Below the pieces are notes generated by a model. It was not told the origin of the DNA. It saw only the letters and a list, made by a program, of their open reading frames with translations, and searched no databases. Below, one piece after another: positions 2,009-12,151 of a stretch of 37,409 nt of DNA. This stretch comes from Syntrophomonadaceae bacterium. GTDB taxonomy: Bacteria > Bacillota > Syntrophomonadia > Syntrophomonadales > Syntrophomonadaceae. The DNA lies in contig JAAYCK010000017.1 of NCBI GenBank assembly GCA_012729835.1, forward strand, positions 1-37,409, written 5' to 3'. Each line of letters begins with the position of its first letter. The first letter of the stretch is position 1. The position numbers and the translations under genes are program-made.

Positions 2009-3391
2009 ATGATACGCTTGAGCAATCTGCCGGCCCGGACTCTGAAGGCTATCGGAACGGTGTTCAATGGTTTTGATGGGGCTTTGATAATTGATGAGAA
2101 GGGGCATATAGCAGTTATTACCGAAAACTATGCCGACGTGGCTGGGGTAGATCCGGAAGAGGTGACGGGGAAACATGTGCTGGAGATCTTCCCCAAGAGC
2201 AGGATGATCGAAGTGCTTACCACCGGCAAACCGATTTTTGCTGAACTGTGGGAAGCGGGCAGAGAGACAGTTTGGGTAACCCGGGTACCTATAGTGTCCG
2301 ACGGCAGGATCATCGGGGCGGCGGCCGTCAGCGTGTTTCGTTATATGGATGAAGCGAAGCGCTTTGCCAAACAGTTGAAAAACATGGACAGTGAGCTGGA
2401 GTATTACAAATCGCAGGTGCGCAAGCTGTCCGGAGCCAGATATTCCTTCGATGCTATCGTGGGGACCAGCGCGGCTATTTCCATTGCCAAGACCAATGCC
2501 CAGCGTATGACCAGAAACCGGGCGCCGGTGCTGATCGTTGGGGAGACCGGGACCGGCAAGGAGCTGTTCGCTCACGCCATTCATCAGGCCAGTTCCCGTC
2601 GCGACCGTCCGTTTATACGGGTCAACTGTGCCAGCATACCAGATAACCTCAGTGAATCAGAGCTGTTCGGTTATGAAGAGGGAGCTTTTACCGGGGCCCG
2701 CAAGGGCGGAAGGGCTGGTAAGTTTGAACTGGCTCACGGCGGAACCATCTTCCTGGACGAGATTAATGAACTGCCGGGAAATATTCAGGCCAAACTGTTG
2801 CGGGTCCTGCAGGAGGGAGAGATTGACCGCATTGGTGGGACTGACGTCAGTCTGATAGATGTCCGCGTTATCAGCGCTACCAGTGCTCATCTTAACGAAT
2901 TGGTCGAGCAGAAACTCTTCAGACAGGATCTGTTTTATCGGATAAATGCTTTCATACTGGTAATACCTCCGCTGCGGGAGCGCCTGGAGGATATCCCGTT
3001 GCTGTGCGAGCACTTTATCGATAACTGCAACTACGAGCTGGGCACCGCGGTGGCTGGAATCGACCGCAAGGTGCTGCAGGCCTTTGCCCGTTATGATTGG
3101 CCAGGCAATGTACGGGAACTAAGAAATGTGATCCAGCGGGCTTGCTTGAATGCCGGTTCGGACATAATTAAGACCAGCCATCTGCCATTTGAATCCATCG
3201 GGCGCAAGGGGACTTCTGCAAGTACTGATGGAGGGAGCCTTGAGGAGTACCTGGCTGGAGTTGAACGGGAATATATTGTGGGAATACTGCAATCAGTGCG
3301 CTGGAATCGCAACCGGGCAGCGGAGATCCTGGGGATACACCGCACTTCTCTTTATGCCAAAATGAAAAAGTACGGACTCCTGGAACAATAA
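2009..3391 (+). CDS. sigma-54-dependent transcriptional activator (PAS-AAA+-Fis)
   Basis: This is a 460-residue bacterial enhancer-binding protein. The start is the ATG at 2009, seven bases after GGCGGAGG; the frame is open further upstream but has no ribosome site there. An N-terminal PAS sensor covers about residues 12-125 (GALIIDEKGHIAVITENYADVAGV), followed by a short coiled linker. The AAA+ core has Walker A GETGTGKE near residue 178, the sigma-54 contact loop GAFTGA near 225, Walker B GGTIFLDEIN, and the R-finger region FRQDLFYRIN. A Fis-type HTH ends the protein (NRAAEILGIHRTSLYAKMKKYG). There is no phosphoreceiver domain, so it probably senses a small ligand or redox state through PAS. 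A consensus -24/-12 promoter and dyad sites lie before the next gene, the CoA-transferase, which is its likely target. Confidence 0.95.
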   Translation: MIRLSNLPARTLKAIGTVFNGFDGALIIDEKGHIAVITENYADVAGVDPEEVTGKHVLEIFPKSRMIEVLTTGKPIFAELWEAGRETVWVTRVPIVSDGRIIGAAAVSVFRYMDEAKRFAKQLKNMDSELEYYKSQVRKLSGARYSFDAIVGTSAAISIAKTNAQRMTRNRAPVLIVGETGTGKELFAHAIHQASSRRDRPFIRVNCASIPDNLSESELFGYEEGAFTGARKGGRAGKFELAHGGTIFLDEINELPGNIQAKLLRVLQEGEIDRIGGTDVSLIDVRVISATSAHLNELVEQKLFRQDLFYRINAFILVIPPLRERLEDIPLLCEHFIDNCNYELGTAVAGIDRKVLQAFARYDWPGNVRELRNVIQRACLNAGSDIIKTSHLPFESIGRKGTSASTDGGSLEEYLAGVEREYIVGILQSVRWNRNRAAEILGIHRTSLYAKMKKYGLLEQ

Positions 3392-3424
3392 ATTAGTTAA
3401 GCCCCGAAAGGGGGCGGTGGTATT

Positions 3425-3533
3425 GATTGCCGCGTCGCTAACGCTCCTCGCAAAGACAAGTTGGGGCACCGGGGCGAATATTGTGTCATTGCGAGCGCAG
3501 CGCGGCAATCTTACCCCGTTTTCGCAGCAATGG
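3425..3533. repeat. REP-like dispersed palindromic repeat, copy 1
   Basis: Two inverted units, GATTGCCGCGTCGC...CTCGCAA and TTGCGAGCGCAGCGCGGCAATC, flank a spacer containing AAGTTGGGGCACCGGGGCG. The same parts recur near 8191, 11191, 14891, 18594, 30000 and 35868. The outer arms can pair into a long hairpin. It lies directly after the sigma-54 activator gene and carries no coding potential I trust. Confidence 0.85.
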
Positions 3534-3560
3534 CAGGAATGCAGCATAGTGTATTCAAAA

Positions 3561-3578
3561 TGTTGAGATAACGCAACA
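3561..3578. promoter_or_regulatory. candidate enhancer site 1 (TGTTG-N8-CAACA)
   Basis: TGTTGAGATAACGCAACA is an interrupted dyad about 250 bp upstream of the -24 element. Its reverse complement is nearly identical to the site at 3766-3783 (18-base core with one changed base). Two matching dyads in front of a sigma-54 promoter, beside an enhancer-binding protein gene, suggest upstream activating sites. This is inference from position and symmetry. Confidence 0.6.
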
Positions 3579-3603
3579 TAAACTAATATATAATATTCAG
3601 GCA

Positions 3604-3639
3604 AATAATTCCTCTTGCTGATTGGCTAGAGGAATTATT
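3604..3639. repeat. perfect 12-bp inverted repeat, possible weak terminator
   Basis: AATAATTCCTCT at 3604-3615 and AGAGGAATTATT at 3628-3639 are exact reverse complements with a 12-nt loop, followed by GTTTTCT. It could end transcripts from the sigma-54 activator gene, or be a protein site lying between the two TGTTG/CAACA dyads. The AT-rich stem makes it a weak terminator at best. Confidence 0.5.
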
Positions 3640-3765
3640 GTTTTCTAGGGCTTATACCCCAACCAACACCTATATAACCGGCAAAACGAAATGGAAAACA
3701 TCTGCGGAATATTCATGCAATTTTGTTCTGCTCGGGCTGATTGAGCGAAGGGATTGTATGACTGA

Positions 3766-3798
3766 TGTTGCGTTATCACAACATGCCGAAAATGTTGT
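3766..3798. promoter_or_regulatory. candidate enhancer site 2 with overlapping third half-site
   Basis: TGTTG at 3766-3770 and CAACA at 3779-3783 repeat the site-1 dyad in the opposite orientation (core CGTTATCA). The CAACA arm is also the left arm of a second dyad, ACAACAT-N7-ATGTTGT (3778-3784 and 3792-3798). This gives three half-sites within 33 bp, ending 27 bp before the -24 element. Such clustering fits oligomeric binding by the adjacent enhancer-binding protein. Confidence 0.6.
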
Positions 3799-3825
3799 AT
3801 GCCGTAATTTTGGGGATACCAGCGC

Positions 3826-3841
3826 TGGCATGGATCTTGCT
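3826..3841 (+). promoter_or_regulatory. sigma-54 (-24/-12) promoter of the CoA-transferase gene
   Basis: TGGCATGGATCTTGCT fits the sigma-54 consensus TGGCAY-R-N4-TTGCW at every defined position, with the GG and GC doublets at the required spacing. It lies 58 bp before the CoA-transferase ATG at 3900, in the right orientation. The PAS/AAA+ activator is encoded immediately upstream. Confidence 0.85.
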
Positions 3842-3899
3842 TAATAAAAGGCCATGAGGGACCTGTCCAATAGCTATAGAAAGGAAGGAGAAAAAGGTT

Positions 3900-5276
3900 A
3901 TGAGCACTTTTATGGATGAGTACAGATCAAAATTGATCAGCGCTGAGCAGGCAGCCCGACTGGTTAAGTCGGGAATGGTTATCGAATATGGACAGTTTGC
4001 CACCAAGCCGGTAGATTTTGACCGGGCGCTGGGGGCCAGAGCGGGCGAAGAAAACCTGACTGATGTGACGATACGAGCGACCGGCACCGTATTGCCTGTG
4101 CCAGAAGTGGTGAAAAATGACCCCCAGCACAAATCATTTACCTATGGCAGCTGGTATTGCACGGCAGTTGATCGTAAGATGGGAGATTTCGGGCTGTGTA
4201 TCCACTACCCCTTCAACTATCACGAAGCTAATAATGTGGGGACGCTTTCTTCTTTCCAACATCGCTGGTGTGACATCTGGGTAGCGCAGACTACTCCGAT
4301 GGATCGGGGCGGTTGTTTTAACTTCGGTTTGGGGAACTCTCACAGTTATGCCCTGGGCAGCACTGCGAAGTATCGCATTGTAGAGGTTAATACCAATATG
4401 CCGCGCTGCCTGGGCGGATTCGAGGAAGGTATTCCTTTAGATGAAGTCGATTATATTATCGAAGGATCCAATAGCCCGATTTTTGCTACTCCGCCATCTC
4501 CGGCTCCCAACAAGGCGGAACAGAAGATCGCCGAATATATAGTTGAGGAGATCAGGGATGGTTCCTGCATCCAGTTGGGAATAGGAGCGTTGCCGAATAC
4601 CATCGGCATGATGCTGGCAGAATCGGATCTTAAGGATCTGGGTGTGCAGAGTGAGATGTTCTGTGATGCTTTCGTAGCCATGTATGAAGCGGGGAAGATA
4701 ACTAATGCCAAGAAGGCCACCGACCGTTTCAAATCTACTTATACCTTCTGCCTGGGCCAGCAGTCGACCTATGATTTTATCCACGACAATTCACGGCTGG
4801 CCTCCTGCCCGGTGCAATACACCAACGATCCAGCCCGAGTGCGGCTCAATGACCGCATGGTATCGATCAATAATATTCTGGAGATAGATCTGCTTTCACA
4901 GGTTTGTTCAGAATCCAAGGGCCTGCGCCAGATTTCCGGTACCGGGGGACAGCTGGACTTCGTTATTGGCGCCTTCGAATCAAATGAGGGGATGAGCTTC
5001 CTGGCTTTTTCATCAACCTTCAAAGATAAGGAGGGTAATCTGCATTCCCGTATCCGGCCGATGCTAACGCCGGGCGGAGTAGTAACCGTTCCCCGTACCA
5101 TGGTAAACTGGGTAGTTACCGAATACGGCAAGGTCAATTTGAAGGCCTTATCCATCTGGGAGCGGGCTGAAGCCCTTATCAACATTGCTCATCCGGATTT
5201 CAGGGATCAGTTGATAAAGGACGCCGAGCAGATGAAGCTCTGGCGCCCTACCAACAAAATTGCCTGTTCCGCATGA
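3900..5276 (+). CDS. acetyl-CoA hydrolase/transferase family CoA-transferase (butyryl- or 4-hydroxybutyrate-CoA type)
   Basis: This 458-residue cytoplasmic enzyme moves CoA between an acyl-CoA and acetate (or another carboxylate). It belongs to family I acetyl-CoA hydrolase/transferases, like Cat1, AbfT and butyryl-CoA:acetate transferases. Visible marks are the CoA-binding stretch GIGALPNTIG, the motif SEMFCDAF whose Glu252 matches the catalytic glutamate that forms the glutamyl-CoA thioester, and the C-terminal GTGGQLDFVIGAF segment. The start follows GGAAGGAG. The gene is monocistronic: a sigma-54 promoter precedes it and a strong terminator follows at 5307. In a butyrate-oxidising or fermenting anaerobe it would activate fatty acids or recover acetate. 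The exact substrate cannot be read from the sequence. The dedicated sigma-54 control suggests expression is induced by a signal sensed by the upstream PAS protein. Confidence 0.93.
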   Translation: MSTFMDEYRSKLISAEQAARLVKSGMVIEYGQFATKPVDFDRALGARAGEENLTDVTIRATGTVLPVPEVVKNDPQHKSFTYGSWYCTAVDRKMGDFGLCIHYPFNYHEANNVGTLSSFQHRWCDIWVAQTTPMDRGGCFNFGLGNSHSYALGSTAKYRIVEVNTNMPRCLGGFEEGIPLDEVDYIIEGSNSPIFATPPSPAPNKAEQKIAEYIVEEIRDGSCIQLGIGALPNTIGMMLAESDLKDLGVQSEMFCDAFVAMYEAGKITNAKKATDRFKSTYTFCLGQQSTYDFIHDNSRLASCPVQYTNDPARVRLNDRMVSINNILEIDLLSQVCSESKGLRQISGTGGQLDFVIGAFESNEGMSFLAFSSTFKDKEGNLHSRIRPMLTPGGVVTVPRTMVNWVVTEYGKVNLKALSIWERAEALINIAHPDFRDQLIKDAEQMKLWRPTNKIACSA

Positions 5277-5306: not shown

Positions 5307-5340
5307 GCCTCCCCAAAGGATGGGGAGGCCTTTTCTTTTT
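5307..5340. terminator. intrinsic terminator between convergent genes
   Basis: GCCTCCCC at 5307-5314 pairs exactly with GGGGAGGC at 5322-5329 around a 7-nt loop, followed by CTTTTCTTTTT. It ends the CoA-transferase transcript. The AAAATTTT on the left side could give partial termination for the converging minus-strand operon. Confidence 0.92.
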
Positions 5341-6520: not shown

Positions 6521-8019
6521 TATTCCACCCTCCCCAACTCGCGAATTACTGCTCGGGCGGCCTGGACCCCGGAATTAAGTGTAGGCTGGAAGCCGCCGCT
6601 GCCTGCCCAGGCGCCGGCCAGGTACAAACCCTGCACCGGTGATCGGGGTGACGAAAAGAGGGATGATTCTTTGGCATACTGATCGAAGCCGTAGATAGCT
6701 CCGCCCGGATGGCCCAGATAGCGCATATGGGTTATGGGAGTGGCTATCTCGATTTCTTCTATATGTTCCCGGAACCCGGGATAAAGTGCATCCACCCGGC
6801 TCAATAAAATCTCAGCATACTCGAACTTGGTCTGATAATACTGCTGCGGCGGAACGGATTCCCAGGGCTCGGAATACTTCAGATCAACGATGACCACCTG
6901 TGCGCAGCCCGGAGGAGAAAAGGAGGGGTCGACCAGGTCATAACAGGTAACCAGCAGCATGTCGTCAGAGGTATCCAGCTGACGAAAACGGGCATAGGCG
7001 TAATCCATATCGGTACTCGTGCAGATGAAGTTGGTGGCTTCACTGATACCCAGCTCTGATGCTTCGCAGTCCAGACCAACGTAGATAGTGAATGAGGAGG
7101 GGCCTACAGTGCTGCCGCGCAGTTCATTCATTTTATCGGGTTTAAGGGCAGCAGGTTCCATAAACTCGAGATAGGTATCCAGGCTGGAAGCGTTCGAGAC
7201 TACGGCCCGGGTTCTAATAAGCACATCATCCGAGGTGTAAACGCCAGTCACCCGGCCATCCTTGACCTCCAGTCCTCGGGCGGCGCAGTTGAAATGTACA
7301 GAGCCCCCGTTTTGCAGGATCTGGTCCAGCAGGGCAGCGGACATGGCCTGTGAGCCGCCCAGCAGATGAAAAGGCTTAAATTCCAGATAGGAGAACATGA
7401 GGACTGCCATGTCGGTAAAGCTTAAGCGACTGGGGGGCAGTCCCATGTAGCACCAGTAAATTGAAACGGCCATCTTAAGCAGCGGATTATGCAGGTACTC
7501 TTCCAATACATCTGAGGTGTTCTTCAGAGCATATTTAAAGTACAACGGATATTTTTCGGGAGTTATTTCGGGGTCTTTCATATAGAAAGCCCTCATCAAT
7601 TCATAGAAGAAAGCGTAAATCAGATCAAAGTAGGCGGCGATTCCTTCCTTCTCCTCGGGGAAACGGTTTTGCAGCGCATCGATACAGCCTTCCCGGTCTG
7701 CTGGCAGAGTGAGCAGCAGTTGGCCGGGCAGGATCACCCGGTAAAGATTTTTCATCGCTACCCATTTAAGATCCTGGGCTACTTTCAGATCATCCAAGAC
7801 CTTGTATAAAGGGCCTGGCTTATCAGGGGTTCCCAGGCCGCTTAGTTGGTGAAGAGCTACCTCGAATTCGAAGCGGCCCCGGCAAAAGCTGGTGGCGCAG
7901 CCGCCTGGTATGTTGTGCTTTTCCAGCACCATTACCCGGAGACCCGCTTGGGCAAGTGTAGCAGCAGCAGTTAGTCCGCCATTGCCAGCACCAATGACTA
8001 CTACATCATAATCAGTCAT
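6520..8019 (-). CDS. phytoene desaturase/RetSat-like FAD-dependent oxidoreductase
   Basis: This 499-residue flavoprotein starts at the ATG at 8019, seven bases after AAGGAGG; an upstream in-frame start at 8040 has no such site. The N-terminal dinucleotide-binding fold reads GAGNGGLTAAATLAQAG (residues 10-26), ends in VLEK, and is followed by PGGCATSF. The C-terminal FAD motif is GLYLAGAWAGSGGFQPTLNSG. This is the CrtI/RetSat branch of amine-oxidase-like flavoenzymes, which desaturate or saturate isoprenoid or polyunsaturated lipids. No carotenoid synthesis genes are nearby. Coupling to an NAD(P)H/2Fe-2S reductase suggests it acts as a reductase or saturase fed with electrons, possibly on a lipid or prenyl substrate. 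The true substrate is unknown. Confidence 0.9.
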   Translation of the reverse strand: MTDYDVVVIGAGNGGLTAAATLAQAGLRVMVLEKHNIPGGCATSFCRGRFEFEVALHQLSGLGTPDKPGPLYKVLDDLKVAQDLKWVAMKNLYRVILPGQLLLTLPADREGCIDALQNRFPEEKEGIAAYFDLIYAFFYELMRAFYMKDPEITPEKYPLYFKYALKNTSDVLEEYLHNPLLKMAVSIYWCYMGLPPSRLSFTDMAVLMFSYLEFKPFHLLGGSQAMSAALLDQILQNGGSVHFNCAARGLEVKDGRVTGVYTSDDVLIRTRAVVSNASSLDTYLEFMEPAALKPDKMNELRGSTVGPSSFTIYVGLDCEASELGISEATNFICTSTDMDYAYARFRQLDTSDDMLLVTCYDLVDPSFSPPGCAQVVIVDLKYSEPWESVPPQQYYQTKFEYAEILLSRVDALYPGFREHIEEIEIATPITHMRYLGHPGGAIYGFDQYAKESSLFSSPRSPVQGLYLAGAWAGSGGFQPTLNSGVQAARAVIRELGRVE

Positions 8020-8190
8020 GAAAAGCCTCCTTATCGGCATATTCCCAATCTGATAACAAGCTGTAGTGGGTATCTATTAGTTTCTACCCCGCGCTGCTTT
8101 TTTCCTGTTTGGGGAAAATAATAATTATTCTTCCTCAGGTGACCGGTTTTTTGTTCAGTAAATACGTGATTCTATGAAATGCCATTTTTG

Positions 8191-8370
8191 CAGAAACCGG
8201 GGAAGATTGCCGCGCTGCGCTCGCAATGACACAATAAAGAATTGCCGCCCCGGTGCCCCAACTTGCCATTGCTGCGAAACTCGCGTTCTTGTCGTTGCGA
8301 GGAGCGACGCGACGCGGCAATCTTCCCCGGCGTAAATAGTAACAATCGCTGTTCGTTCATCGTGGTGGGT
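8191..8370. repeat. REP-like dispersed palindromic repeat, copy 2
   Basis: This is a full composite copy: CCGGGGAAGATTGCCGCGCTGC at the left, CGACGCGGCAATCTTCCCCGG at the right, and the central GGTGCCCCAACTTG found inverted in copy 1. A distal tail, GTTCGTTCATCGTGGTGGGTT, recurs inverted near 11221 and direct near 30130. It fills the gap between the flavoprotein gene and the GntR promoter. I see no gene in it. Confidence 0.85.
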
Positions 8371-8383
8371 TATTAATAATAAC

Positions 8384-8412
8384 TTGACAAGATAATAAGC
8401 ACATAATAAAAT
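8384..8412 (+). promoter_or_regulatory. sigma-A-type promoter of the gntR-ABC operon
   Basis: TTGACA at 8384-8389 and TAAAAT at 8407-8412 are separated by 17 bp. The operator starts two bases after the -10 box, so the transcription start should fall inside the operator. Confidence 0.85.
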
Positions 8413-8413
8413 T

Positions 8414-8437
8414 AGTGCACTAGGACACTAGTGCACT
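8414..8437. promoter_or_regulatory. 24-bp palindromic operator, likely bound by the YtrA-type GntR
   Basis: AGTGCACTAG (8414-8423), GACA, then CTAGTGCACT (8428-8437) form a perfect 10-bp inverted repeat covering the predicted transcription start and ending 26 bp before the gntR ATG. Binding here would block initiation, giving autorepression of the regulator and the ABC genes. Assignment to this regulator is by position. Confidence 0.75.
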
Positions 8438-8463
8438 ATGGGAAGGACATAGGAGGTGATGCC

Positions 8464-8850
8464 ATGGATTTCGATCTGGCCCGGCCAATATACCAGCAGA
8501 TAATAGATGAATATAAAAAAAAGTTGATCCGGGGCGAGCTGCGCCAGGGAGATAAGATCCTGTCTCAGCGCGAGTATGCAGAGAAGGCGAGGACCAATCC
8601 CAACACTGTTCAGCGAGCTTACCGGGAGATGGAGAACATGAAACTGGTGGAGACGGTGAGGGGGCAGGGTACCTTTGTATGCATAGCGCCTGAACAGTTA
8701 GAGTTAATTCGCAACGAGATGGCCGGTTCCGTTATTGAATTATGTGTAAGCGAGATGAAAGCACTGGGTTTTACTGAACAGGAGATCCGGGTACGCTTGG
8801 AGCAGGTGCTGGTTAATGCAAAGGAGGTTATAACAGATGATCGAGTTTAA
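8464..8850 (+). CDS. GntR-family regulator, YtrA subfamily
   Basis: This 128-residue repressor starts at the ATG at 8464, after GGAGGTGATGCC. The winged helix spans residues 5-72, with RPIYQQIIDEYKKKLIRGEL and the recognition region TNPNTVQRAYREMENMKL. GQGTF closes the wing. The short C-terminal tail of about 50 residues, with no FCD or UTRA domain, is typical of YtrA regulators, which control ABC exporters and usually respond to cell-envelope stress. The gene overlaps the ABC ATPase gene by 14 bases and is driven by the 8384 promoter. Lack of an effector domain suggests sensing by dimer dissociation or an unknown ligand. Confidence 0.93.
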   Translation: MDFDLARPIYQQIIDEYKKKLIRGELRQGDKILSQREYAEKARTNPNTVQRAYREMENMKLVETVRGQGTFVCIAPEQLELIRNEMAGSVIELCVSEMKALGFTEQEIRVRLEQVLVNAKEVITDDRV

Positions 8851-9532
8851 GGGGGTATCCAAGAATTTTGGCCGGACCAGGGCCCTGGATGCCGTGGATA
8901 TTACTTTTGCCACCGGCAAGATAACCGGGCTTTTTGGCCCGAACGGCGCGGGGAAGTCTACCAGTTTGAAACTGATCACCGGCCTGAACCGGCCGGATCG
9001 GGGAGAGGTATTGTTAGACGGACGTAATCCGATGGACAGCAAAGTCGATATAGCTTATCTGCCTGAAATAGACCATTTATATCCCTGGATGACTATCCGC
9101 CAGGCGGCATCCTTTGTCAGCGATTTTTATGGTGACTGGGATGGGGAGCGTTACAAGGACCTGTTGGGTTTCCTCGGTCTGGATGATGAAATGAAAATCG
9201 GCAAGATATCCAAGGGACAGCGGGCCAAGACCAAGCTTTTGTTGTGTACGACCAGACGTTCCCGGTACTTGCTGCTGGATGAGCCGCTTTCCGGTATAGA
9301 TATCCTTACCCGGGAGCAGATCATACAGACTCTGATCCGGGATTTTAGGGAGGGCGAGCAGAGCATCATCATTTCTACCCATGAGATCTCTGAGATAGAA
9401 GGATTAGTCGATGAGGTGGTATTCCTGGATCGGGGAAGGGTACGCCTGCAGGGCGACGCCGAACAATTGAGGGAAGAAAGGGGCATGTCCCTGGTGGAAA
9501 TCATGAAGGAGGCGTTTAGAGATGCAAACTAG
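8837..9532 (+). CDS. ABC transporter ATP-binding protein
   Basis: This 231-residue nucleotide-binding subunit has Walker A GPNGAGKST at residues 34-42, Walker B YLLLDEPLSG and the switch histidine in IISTHEIS. The signature motif is unusual: ISKGQRAKTKL instead of LSGGQ, a form common in exporter ATPases controlled by YtrA-type regulators. Its start lies inside the 3' end of the gntR gene, preceded by AAGGAGG, and its end overlaps the permease gene by 11 bases, so the three are one translationally linked operon. The substrate is unknown; peptide or antibiotic export or membrane-stress defence is plausible from family context. Confidence 0.94.
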   Translation: MIEFKGVSKNFGRTRALDAVDITFATGKITGLFGPNGAGKSTSLKLITGLNRPDRGEVLLDGRNPMDSKVDIAYLPEIDHLYPWMTIRQAASFVSDFYGDWDGERYKDLLGFLGLDDEMKIGKISKGQRAKTKLLLCTTRRSRYLLLDEPLSGIDILTREQIIQTLIRDFREGEQSIIISTHEISEIEGLVDEVVFLDRGRVRLQGDAEQLREERGMSLVEIMKEAFRDAN

Positions 9533-10304
9533 TTCCTGGCGGCGATTCTCGGCTCTATACAGCAAGGAACTCCGCGAGCTGCGACCTGAGATAGTTATAG
9601 TAGTAGCAGCAGCGGTTTTGATTTGTGTGACCATGTTTGTTAAATCAGGGACTAGCGAGCGTGACCTGCTGGTCTTACCAATAGTCTTGTTGATGGGATT
9701 GGCTGGTTTTCTGCCCTTTGTTGCTACTTTTAAACTTCTGGGCAGGGAATGGAGCAGCAATACGATTTACCTTATCATGTCGCTGCCGGCCAGTGGGGAA
9801 TTAATCCTCGGAGCTAAACTTGCTGCGTTGATTAGTCAGTACCTGCTAGGAACGCTGGTAGTAATCGCTTCAGCCGTTGTCTGGTTGTACCCCCACTTGC
9901 CGGAATTAGTAAGGTCACTGAACTCTATGACTGGAATAGATATGCAACTGGCTCAATTTATACCGGGAATCGCAATAGCTTATCTCCTGAGTTTAACCTG
10001 GTTGTTTTATCTCATTTCCGCGAGTTTTTTAAGCCAACTTATCAGCAAGCTTTTTACCCGGTTCAATGGAGCGATCACCCTGATAGCCTTTGTTATTATA
10101 CTAATGCTAGGTAGTTGGTTGATGGAGATATCCAGATCATTTATCAATACTTCGTCTTCAATCAATATTGTTGGGACCGATGTTGTCTCGGGCTTGCAAC
10201 AAGCTATTCTGTTTATGGGGATTAACAGTGCTATATATTTTATTGCTGCCGGGTTGATAATGATGATCAGCATCCTGGTTTATAACTATAGAATAGAGTT
10301 ATAA
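9522..10304 (+). CDS. ABC-2-type transporter permease
   Basis: This 260-residue membrane protein has about six hydrophobic segments, including residues near 22-40, 50-70, 100-125, 150-175, 180-200 and 230-255. A cytoplasmic basic N-terminus (SWRRFSALYSKELRELRPE) matches the ABC-2 permease entry helix. The start is preceded by AAGGAGG and overlaps the ATPase gene. It should form the membrane channel for the ATPase just upstream. Its stop is only six bases from the stop of the convergent hydrolase gene, with no obvious terminator, so converging transcripts probably overlap. Confidence 0.9.
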   Translation: MQTSSWRRFSALYSKELRELRPEIVIVVAAAVLICVTMFVKSGTSERDLLVLPIVLLMGLAGFLPFVATFKLLGREWSSNTIYLIMSLPASGELILGAKLAALISQYLLGTLVVIASAVVWLYPHLPELVRSLNSMTGIDMQLAQFIPGIAIAYLLSLTWLFYLISASFLSQLISKLFTRFNGAITLIAFVIILMLGSWLMEISRSFINTSSSINIVGTDVVSGLQQAILFMGINSAIYFIAAGLIMMISILVYNYRIEL

Positions 10305-10310
10305 TTCTGG

Positions 10311-11084
10311 CTAAGCCTTGATCCTGATCTGTTCAATAAATTCATGGATAGCCTGGTTCACGTGACCAGGCTTTTCTAACATGGCGAAATGTCCGGCATC
10401 GGGGATTATCATTAGGCGGGCATCTGCTGCTCTTTCCTGGACCCAGCGAGAATTCTTCGGCGGAGTCAAGCGGTCTTGGTCACCTACTATCAGCAGCATG
10501 GGAAGAGCCAGGGCGGCCAGGTCACCTGTCATATCGAATTCATTACAGGCGGTAAAGTCCTGGAAAAGAGGATCGGCAGATACCTCTGCATACAGTCTCA
10601 GTTCTTCTTCTAACAGAGACGGTTCAGCCGAGGGCGCAAAACCCAGTGCGAAAAAGGCAGGGTCAACGATACCGGCGGCCAGGCTGTCCAAAAAGGCTGG
10701 CAGGACTCGCATGCGGGCACCGCCGCCGATCAGGATCAGTCCATCAATTGCCTGAGGGCTCAAGGAGGCAGCCTGCATGGCGATAGCCGCTCCCAGGGAA
10801 TGTCCCACCAGGATCAGGGGATGGGGTGGAGCCAGCTGGCGGATAAATTCGGCTATAATTTCGGCCAGCTCGGTGACACGGTTCAAGGCCGGACCAGTAG
10901 AGAGACCGTGCCCCGGCAGATTCAGAGCTATACCCTGGATTTCCGGAGGCAGATCGTTCATCTGTTTGCGCCAGCTCTCTATACTGGCCCCGCTGCCGTG
11001 GATGAACAGCAAAGTAACGGCTGGGCTGGGGGGGCCGGAAGTCTGATAATAAAGGGCATGATGTTCCAGAGTACATACGGGCAT
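10311..11084 (-). CDS. alpha/beta-fold hydrolase
   Basis: This 257-residue cytoplasmic hydrolase has no signal peptide. The oxyanion region is HGSGASIESW, the nucleophile elbow is GHSLG with Ser96, the acid is likely Asp204 in GDQD, and the base is His232 in DAGHFAM. The fold and length match the broad esterase / C-C hydrolase / haloperoxidase-like group. An AAGGAG lies seven bases before the ATG. It is a single gene, converging on the ABC operon, and nothing nearby fixes the substrate. Confidence 0.92.
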   Translation of the reverse strand: MPVCTLEHHALYYQTSGPPSPAVTLLFIHGSGASIESWRKQMNDLPPEIQGIALNLPGHGLSTGPALNRVTELAEIIAEFIRQLAPPHPLILVGHSLGAAIAMQAASLSPQAIDGLILIGGGARMRVLPAFLDSLAAGIVDPAFFALGFAPSAEPSLLEEELRLYAEVSADPLFQDFTACNEFDMTGDLAALALPMLLIVGDQDRLTPPKNSRWVQERAADARLMIIPDAGHFAMLEKPGHVNQAIHEFIEQIRIKA

Positions 11085-11190
11085 TTTGGTTCTCCTTTCC
11101 AGACAAAACCATCCAGGTGAAAAGAAACAGCCAAACTGGGGATAAGAAACCAGGTAAGATTGTCAAAAAGATTACTCGTCATTCAAGCTT

Positions 11191-11390
11191 TGGATTGCCG
11201 CGCTGCGCTCGCAATTATCACGGGTATTTAACCCACCACGATGAACGAAAAGCATTTAGATCTTTTTTATTTATGCAACAATACCGGGGAAGATTGCCGC
11301 GTCGCTAACGCTCCTCGCAATGACAAGTTGGGGCACAGGGGCGGAAATCCAATATTGTGTCATTGCGAGCGCAGCGTGGCAATCTTTAAC
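11191..11390. repeat. REP-like dispersed palindromic repeats, copy 3 (double unit)
   Basis: A unit at 11192-11218 (ATTGCCGCGCTGCGCTCGCAAT) is joined through ACCCACCACGATGAACGAA to a full inverted pair at 11288-11389 with the central AAGTTGGGGCAC. The 500-bp gap between the hydrolase and spoIIR holds this repeat and then a possible spoIIR promoter, and no gene. Confidence 0.85.
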
Positions 11391-11462
11391 GCTAATTATG
11401 TCCTTGCTTATCAGTACTTTATCGAAACCCTGCCATGTTCTCTTGTTTATTTATAATACATT

Positions 11463-11491
11463 TGTAGCATAGGTTCAAACAGGAGATACTT
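11463..11491 (+). promoter_or_regulatory. possible sigma-F promoter of spoIIR
   Basis: GGAGATACTT at 11482-11491 fits the Bacillus sigma-F -10 consensus GGnRAYAMTW at all positions. A weaker -35 (TGTAGC, 11463-11468) lies 13 bp upstream. spoIIR is a sigma-F gene in B. subtilis. The short spacer and weak -35 keep this tentative. Confidence 0.45.
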
Positions 11492-11584
11492 CAATCACCA
11501 AAACTATAATTGGAAAATATTGCCTCGTCTGTTTTAAACGCAGGGATTACGGAAACAATCTCTGGTAGAGAGGGGGCATATCAT

Positions 11585-12151
11585 TTGAAGCGTTTACTAT
11601 TTTCATTTTTAATAATTACCCTGTTGGTTTTTGGTGGGTCTTATCTGTTGAGCCTTAAGGATCAACCGCTGGCTGATGACGTTCTCCGCCTGCATGTTAT
11701 CGCCAACAGTGACGATCCCCAGGACCAGGCGGTCAAGTTAGAGGTAAAAGATCATATCGTGGATATGATGCGCCGTGATTTCAGTGAAGTGAACAGTGCC
11801 GGAGAGGCCAGGAGATTGGCCTTGCAGGAGCGGGCAGATATCCAGGCTGAAGCAGAGTCGGTATTAGCCTCTCGTGGATACCATTATCCGGTCCAGGTGT
11901 ACATCGGGGAATTCGAGTTTCCTGCCAAGAGTTACGGAAACGTCGTGCTGCCCCAGGGTGAATACCAGGCGGTCAGGGTAATCCTGGGCGAAGGGCAGGG
12001 AAAGAATTGGTGGTGTGTATTGTTTCCGCCCTTATGCATGGTCTCGTCCTCTGATAAGGGTCTGGCCCTGTCCAGTCCCCAGGAAGCCGAGGTCACGCTG
12101 AAGTGTCTTGAACTGCTTCCCCGGGGTATGCAGGTAAAAATTAACCGGTAA
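11585..12151 (+). CDS. spoIIR: stage II sporulation protein R
   Basis: SpoIIR is made in the forespore and secreted into the intermembrane space, where it triggers SpoIIGA to process pro-sigma-E in the mother cell. I start it at TTG 11585, which follows GAGAGGGGG at a normal distance; an earlier in-frame TTG at 11510 lacks a ribosome site. This gives 188 residues. Residues 2-22 form a hydrophobic export or anchor segment (LLFSFLIITLLVFGGSYLL). The SpoIIR core begins LRLHVIANSDDPQDQAVKLEVKD and ends near WWCVLFPPLCMV. The gene is monocistronic, preceded by a sigma-F-like -10 and followed by a perfect hairpin. Confidence 0.95.
   Translation: MKRLLFSFLIITLLVFGGSYLLSLKDQPLADDVLRLHVIANSDDPQDQAVKLEVKDHIVDMMRRDFSEVNSAGEARRLALQERADIQAEAESVLASRGYHYPVQVYIGEFEFPAKSYGNVVLPQGEYQAVRVILGEGQGKNWWCVLFPPLCMVSSSDKGLALSSPQEAEVTLKCLELLPRGMQVKINR

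Follow-up and report, generated by a model that had tools for sequence, protein, structure and literature searches.

Fatty acids enter oxidation in syntrophic bacteria through CoA-transferases, whose genes are present in many copies per genome, and we know of no account of how a cell chooses among them. In the window (the whole 37,409-nt stretch of DNA analysed here) a gene for a sigma-54 activator lies upstream of a CoA-transferase gene on the same strand, which raises the question of whether this one enzyme has a switch of its own. A preliminary description of the DNA had proposed that acyl-CoA/acetate exchange is switched here by a sensed signal. The explanation that we favour, and hold to be very probable from the sequence comparisons below, is a local sigma-54 switch of the CoA-transferase by the adjoining activator, probably with this gene as its single target.

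The locus and its two genes

The window lies on contig C113 of a 3.13-Mb genome from a spore-forming member of the Syntrophomonadaceae, which shares its GTDB genus with Syntrophomonas palmitatica JCM 14374. A gap of 509 bp separates the activator gene from the CoA-transferase gene downstream of it (Table 1). A genome lacking rpoN would have spoken against the original proposal; one copy was found (DNA-binding domain, E 2.7e-61).

Table 1. Features of the activator and CoA-transferase locus, with positions in the window.
Feature	Position	Strand	Details
Sigma-54 activator (bEBP), 460 aa	2009..3391	+	single PAS, AAA+ with GAFTGA, Fis-type HTH
REP/MITE-like element, TCATTGCGAGCGCAGCGCGGCAATC family	3424..3510		between activator gene and distal UAS
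Distal candidate UAS (dyad 1)	3560..3579	-	exact TGTTG-N8-CAACA at 3561-3578; centre ~283 bp before predicted start
Inverted repeat, 15 bp, 6-nt loop, then T-rich	3604..3639	+	possible activator mRNA end
Proximal candidate UAS (dyad 2)	3765..3784	+	exact TGTTG-N8-CAACA at 3766-3783; centre ~78 bp before predicted start
Overlapping divergent dyad CAACAT-N7-ATGTTG	3779..3797		right arm of dyad 2 shared
Predicted sigma-54 -24/-12 promoter TGGCATGGATCTTGCT	3826..3841	+	predicted start near 3852
CoA-transferase, 458 aa, AcetylCoA_hydro family, butyryl-CoA:acetate CoA-transferase-like	3900..5276	+	PF02550, PF13336
Intrinsic terminator directly 3' of CoA-transferase	5307..5340	+	9-bp stem, 7 GC pairs, T-rich tail

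The activator gene likely starts at the ATG at 2009, which has GGAGG just 5' of it. Pfam matches of the product were to Sigma54_activat (222 bits), AAA_lid_14 and HTH_8, the Fis-type helix being coded at 3311-3364, and with both GAFTGA (2681-2698) and Walker A (GETGTGKE) intact in the AAA+ domain the protein classes by its sequence as a bEBP. The only N-terminal domain found with Pfam was PAS (PAS_4, 22.3 bits, slightly below its 23.1 cut-off), and there was no response-regulator receiver. The predicted fold of the PAS domain (pLDDT 82) had the cytoplasmic PAS of CitA as its best structural match, and that match gave no hint of a ligand.

The CoA-transferase carries both Pfam domains, a catalytic-type Glu in SEMF at residues 251-254 and a GxGxxP-type motif (GIGALP, 227-232), features by which its sequence fits the AcetylCoA_hydro (4-hydroxybutyrate/butyryl) type, a Pfam family that we take to be the same as COG0427. 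The closest solved structures were 4-hydroxybutyrate CoA-transferases. A true TIGR03948 butyryl-CoA:acetate CoA-transferase was rejected, since the protein scored 508 bits against a cut-off of 674.8. The genes beyond the terminator are on the opposite strand, and the CoA-transferase mRNA is predicted to be a single-gene transcript.

Sites in the intergenic region

Both copies of TGTTG-N8-CAACA that had been reported downstream of the activator gene, at 3561 and 3766, proved to be exact. What the first reading had overlooked is that the dyads repeat a single 20-mer in inverted orientation, as ATGTTGAGATAACGCAACAT and ATGTTGCGTTATCACAACAT, which are 95% complementary. The third, overlapping dyad is real but amounts to one additional half-site, its sense being opposite to that of dyad 2, with which it has an arm in common; its geometry is not kept in S. 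palmitatica, where another extra half-site stands beside the distal UAS. The 3.13-Mb genome has six exact copies of TGTTG-N8-CAACA, and two are in this gap; for the 434 bp that precede the promoter, the probability of finding at least two is about 3e-7.

Sigma-54 promoter matches were scored to a maximum of 16, where scores of at least 14.5, here called strong, have a frequency of some 0.033 per kb on each strand. The promoter in the gap scored 15.5 with one mismatch against TGGCACG-N4-TTGCW, making it near-consensus and the term full match slightly generous, and the 58 bp from it to the CoA-transferase ATG are as first claimed. Its -24 TGGCAC/-12 TTGC[AT] spacing, the presence of rpoN and its conservation in S. 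palmitatica mark it as a predicted sigma-54 promoter. Self-regulation of the activator gene was rejected, as neither a sigma-54 site scoring at least 13 nor TGT-N12-ACA was found upstream of it.

The REP/MITE-like element has two pairs of inverted arms (3425-3434/3501-3510 and 3447-3458/3484-3495), and its repeat is present in seven copies in the 37-kb window and in none of the shuffles. Core copies are at 3424-3510, 8205, 11193, 11360, 14891, 18677 and 30025, and a similar copy lies near a paralogue of the activator on contig C175. The element was not evident in the spacer between activator and CoA-transferase of S. palmitatica, and it is no part of the switch. The inverted repeat at 3604-3639 may mark the end of the activator mRNA; it is absent from the terminator-scan list.

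Conservation in Syntrophomonas palmitatica

Orthologues of the activator (76% identical) and of the CoA-transferase (81% identical) stand in the same order in S. palmitatica, where a promoter scoring 16/16, TGGCACCATTATTGCT, is found at the equivalent place. Two TGTTG-N8-CAACA sites, out of three in that genome, lie within the orthologous gap, in a spacer the rest of which is barely alignable, and the conservation in relatives on which the proposal had been made to depend thus holds for promoter and dyads. The spacing from dyad to dyad is 205 bp in the source genome and 103 bp in S. palmitatica.

The activator might mainly serve other genes in trans, the CoA-transferase being one of several targets of a regulon. 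Action at a distance is possible for bEBPs, and ten full-length bEBP AAA+ matches were found in the source genome, along with 15 related CoA-transferases. However, the scan of exact sites found no strong sigma-54 promoter within 600 bp of the five remaining TGTTG-N8-CAACA sites (four in the source genome, one in S. palmitatica), the best match being one of 14.0 beside one of them, and we regard a regulon as unlikely.

A paralogous activator gene on contig C15 of S. palmitatica (6603-7984 of locus L134) falls into two overlapping frames, one of 128 aa and one of 336 aa; the gene is broken or the draft sequence is in error.

The activator subfamily across genomes

A subfamily was defined with the N-terminal profile of the activator, against which its members score above 139 bits and no other PAS activator more than about 120 bits. 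It has 19 members in 54 genomes of the family, and every one of them adjoins a CoA-transferase gene. In 398 genomes spread over the phylum, a single member was found outside the family (G419, 148 bits), which lies 5' of a GntP-type permease gene and a gene for an AMP-forming acyl-CoA ligase, a context consistent with a role in organic-acid activation.

The order activator, sigma-54 promoter, CoA-transferase is seen for 16 of the 19 members; the activator is 3' of the CoA-transferase in the own-genome paralogue on C175, G077b and G036. Each of the 16 gaps contains a strong sigma-54 match, and together they hold 28 TGT-N12-ACA sites against 0.97 in dinucleotide shuffles, with every other spacing occurring at most four times. 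Most of these sites precede the -24 element by about 70 bp or by 120-160 bp. Exact TGT-N12-ACA is absent from three of the 16 gaps, and two of the three (G027, G077) have degenerate GTCC...GACA-like sites. For CoA-transferase genes at large in three genomes, 7 of 35 had a strong promoter within 400 bp where about 0.46 would be expected.

The same geometry bears on whether the dyads could be operators of another regulator, a repressor or one of sigma-70 type, placed between these genes by coincidence. Simple palindromes with 5-bp arms are bound by many regulators, and dyad 2 overlaps a weak minus-strand sigma-70-like match (3781-3753), but sigma-70-like matches are no commoner than in shuffles, and TGT-N12-ACA agrees with published bEBP sites and keeps a fixed geometry in 16 gaps that have nothing in common but the bEBP family and the sigma-54 promoter, which makes such operators very improbable. 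Chance, meaning random dyads beside an accidental -24/-12 match, is rejected as next to impossible, since the exact sites are rare genome-wide and recur at the same place in S. palmitatica, even though a dyad scan allowing two mismatches, itself uninformative, gave 18 against 14 in shuffles.

The arms of the dyads differ by clade, being TGTTG in the window and S. palmitatica, TGTCC in the own-genome contig C37 and in G020, and mixed elsewhere. In the activator tree the window and S. palmitatica proteins group together with full support, apart from the other 16 activators, and the CoA-transferases of this pair belong to a clade different from that in the other modules, which suggests a partner exchange.

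Longer arrangements also occur. In G027 (contig C64, 1987-9478 of locus L071) the activator and a sigma-54 promoter are followed by four consecutive CoA-transferase genes. On the own-genome contig C175 (4234-11630 of locus L069) five CoA-transferase genes, three of the AcetylCoA_hydro family and two of PF01144, end in a second activator of the subfamily; upstream of this block, which is possibly self-regulating, are paired TGT-N12-ACA sites and a sigma-54 site of lower score (14.0).

Proposed mechanism

In the local switch that we favour, sigma-54 RNA polymerase would wait as a closed complex at the promoter and the PAS/AAA+/Fis activator would bind the two inverted TGTTG-N8-CAACA sites as enhancers, at about -78 and -283, looping the DNA. 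A metabolic cue at the PAS domain, perhaps an acid or acyl-CoA of beta-oxidation, would lead to use of ATP via the GAFTGA loop and to opening of the promoter, the activator thus activating rather than repressing. The output would be a monocistronic CoA-transferase mRNA, and the enzyme would exchange CoA between acetyl- or acyl-CoA on one side and a short-chain acid on the other.

The sigma-54/bEBP switch is well supported because rpoN is present, the promoter and dyads are kept in S. palmitatica, and activator and CoA-transferase are paired family-wide. We counted against it the long distance of the distal UAS (283 bp) with a REP-like element landed beside it, the unequal dyad spacing between the two species, and the three gaps lacking the exact motif. 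As regards the rest of the original proposal, the PAS domain makes it fair to infer that a signal is sensed, and acyl-CoA/acetate exchange is plausible for an enzyme that has kept Glu and GxGxxP and matches TIGR03948, albeit below the cut-off.

Relation to known systems

The preliminary description had held such control to be undescribed for this enzyme family, and three publications contradict it (PMC12316311, PMC6615313, PMC3118216). For Clostridia, the sigma-54 targets predicted in a 2025 survey include COG0427, acetyl-CoA hydrolase, which would place what is apparently the enzyme family of the window gene under predicted sigma-54 promoters; in the portion of the survey considered here, targets are given by gene class, and the activator, the UAS and detail for Syntrophomonadaceae are absent (PMC12316311).

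In Clostridium, cotX and cotY operons were predicted to be under sigma-54 activators, the regulons of CrbR, AhcR and XcgR being cotX-gntT, atoE-hbd-cotX and cotY-gntT-bcd-etfAB, and SigL bound the cotX-gntT promoter in a gel shift (PMC6615313). We infer that cot stands for CoA-transferase. Compared by description, these regulators too are bEBPs of Bacillota, most of them have a PAS domain, and the genes named cot are preceded by TGT-N10-12-ACA sites and a sigma-54 promoter, whereas the genera are others and the targets are multi-gene, against one CoA-transferase here. TGT-N10-12-ACA is the usual clostridial activator site (PMC6615313), and by their sequence the window sites belong to this UAS class with a spacer of N12.

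The E. coli atoDAEB operon is under control of AtoC and sigma-54 (PMC3118216). AtoC is a two-component response regulator with a receiver and the AtoS kinase, while the window activator would sense in one-component fashion through PAS; AtoDA is a two-subunit enzyme and the window CoA-transferase one chain. Membership of the AtoC regulon was rejected on the N-terminal domain of the activator, PAS with no receiver.

The principle that sigma-54 can control CoA-transferases was established earlier, in E. coli and Clostridium, and the window switch is a well-supported further case of it. No prior account in Syntrophomonadaceae was found in the literature searched on sigma-54/CoA-transferase control. 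The link between a one-component sigma-54 activator and individual CoA-transferase genes would be a concrete, testable control point, and the ligand of the PAS domain would tell which substrate the enzyme uses, a specificity that the sequence cannot reveal.

Taken jointly, the observations also allow a wider reading, which we offer tentatively and consider rather doubtful. The Syntrophomonadaceae-centred subfamily may be a dedicated sensor of fatty-acid activation, each member acting on one CoA-transferase or on a block of up to five, with a PAS domain that reads the acid or acyl-CoA; half-site specificity (TGTTG here, TGTCC and others in the sister clade) would have changed when a clade acquired a different CoA-transferase partner. 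If this were true, each species would pick by such sensors the acid to activate during syntrophic growth. The family-wide pattern of activator and CoA-transferase may merit a short paper.

Loci in Syntrophomonas wolfei and outside the family

In S. wolfei (G021, 2,936,195 bp; 7722-11640 of locus L136) a perfect sigma-54 promoter is followed by hbd, a CoA-transferase gene and a PAS-type activator gene. The CoA-transferase is Swol_0436, as three published peptides match at their published positions. Swol_0435 and Swol_0436 were reported as crotonate-specific protein spots (PMC3582634), and Swol_0436 was called constitutive in a later study (PMC9676460); at most, these reports indicate that conditions can affect a related operon. 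The locus resembles that of the window in being from a member of the family, with a sigma-54 promoter before the CoA-transferase and a PAS-type bEBP adjoining, but its activator is downstream and merely 34% identical in the PAS region, and no TGT-N12-ACA was found at the locus. In the assembly used, the reading frame of hbd is interrupted after 207 aa.

Outside the family, a locus of G113 (5154-9016 of L191) has a multi-PAS-type activator, a sigma-54 promoter with three TGT-N12-ACA sites and a FadX-like PF01144 CoA-transferase, the same logic with another CoA-transferase family.
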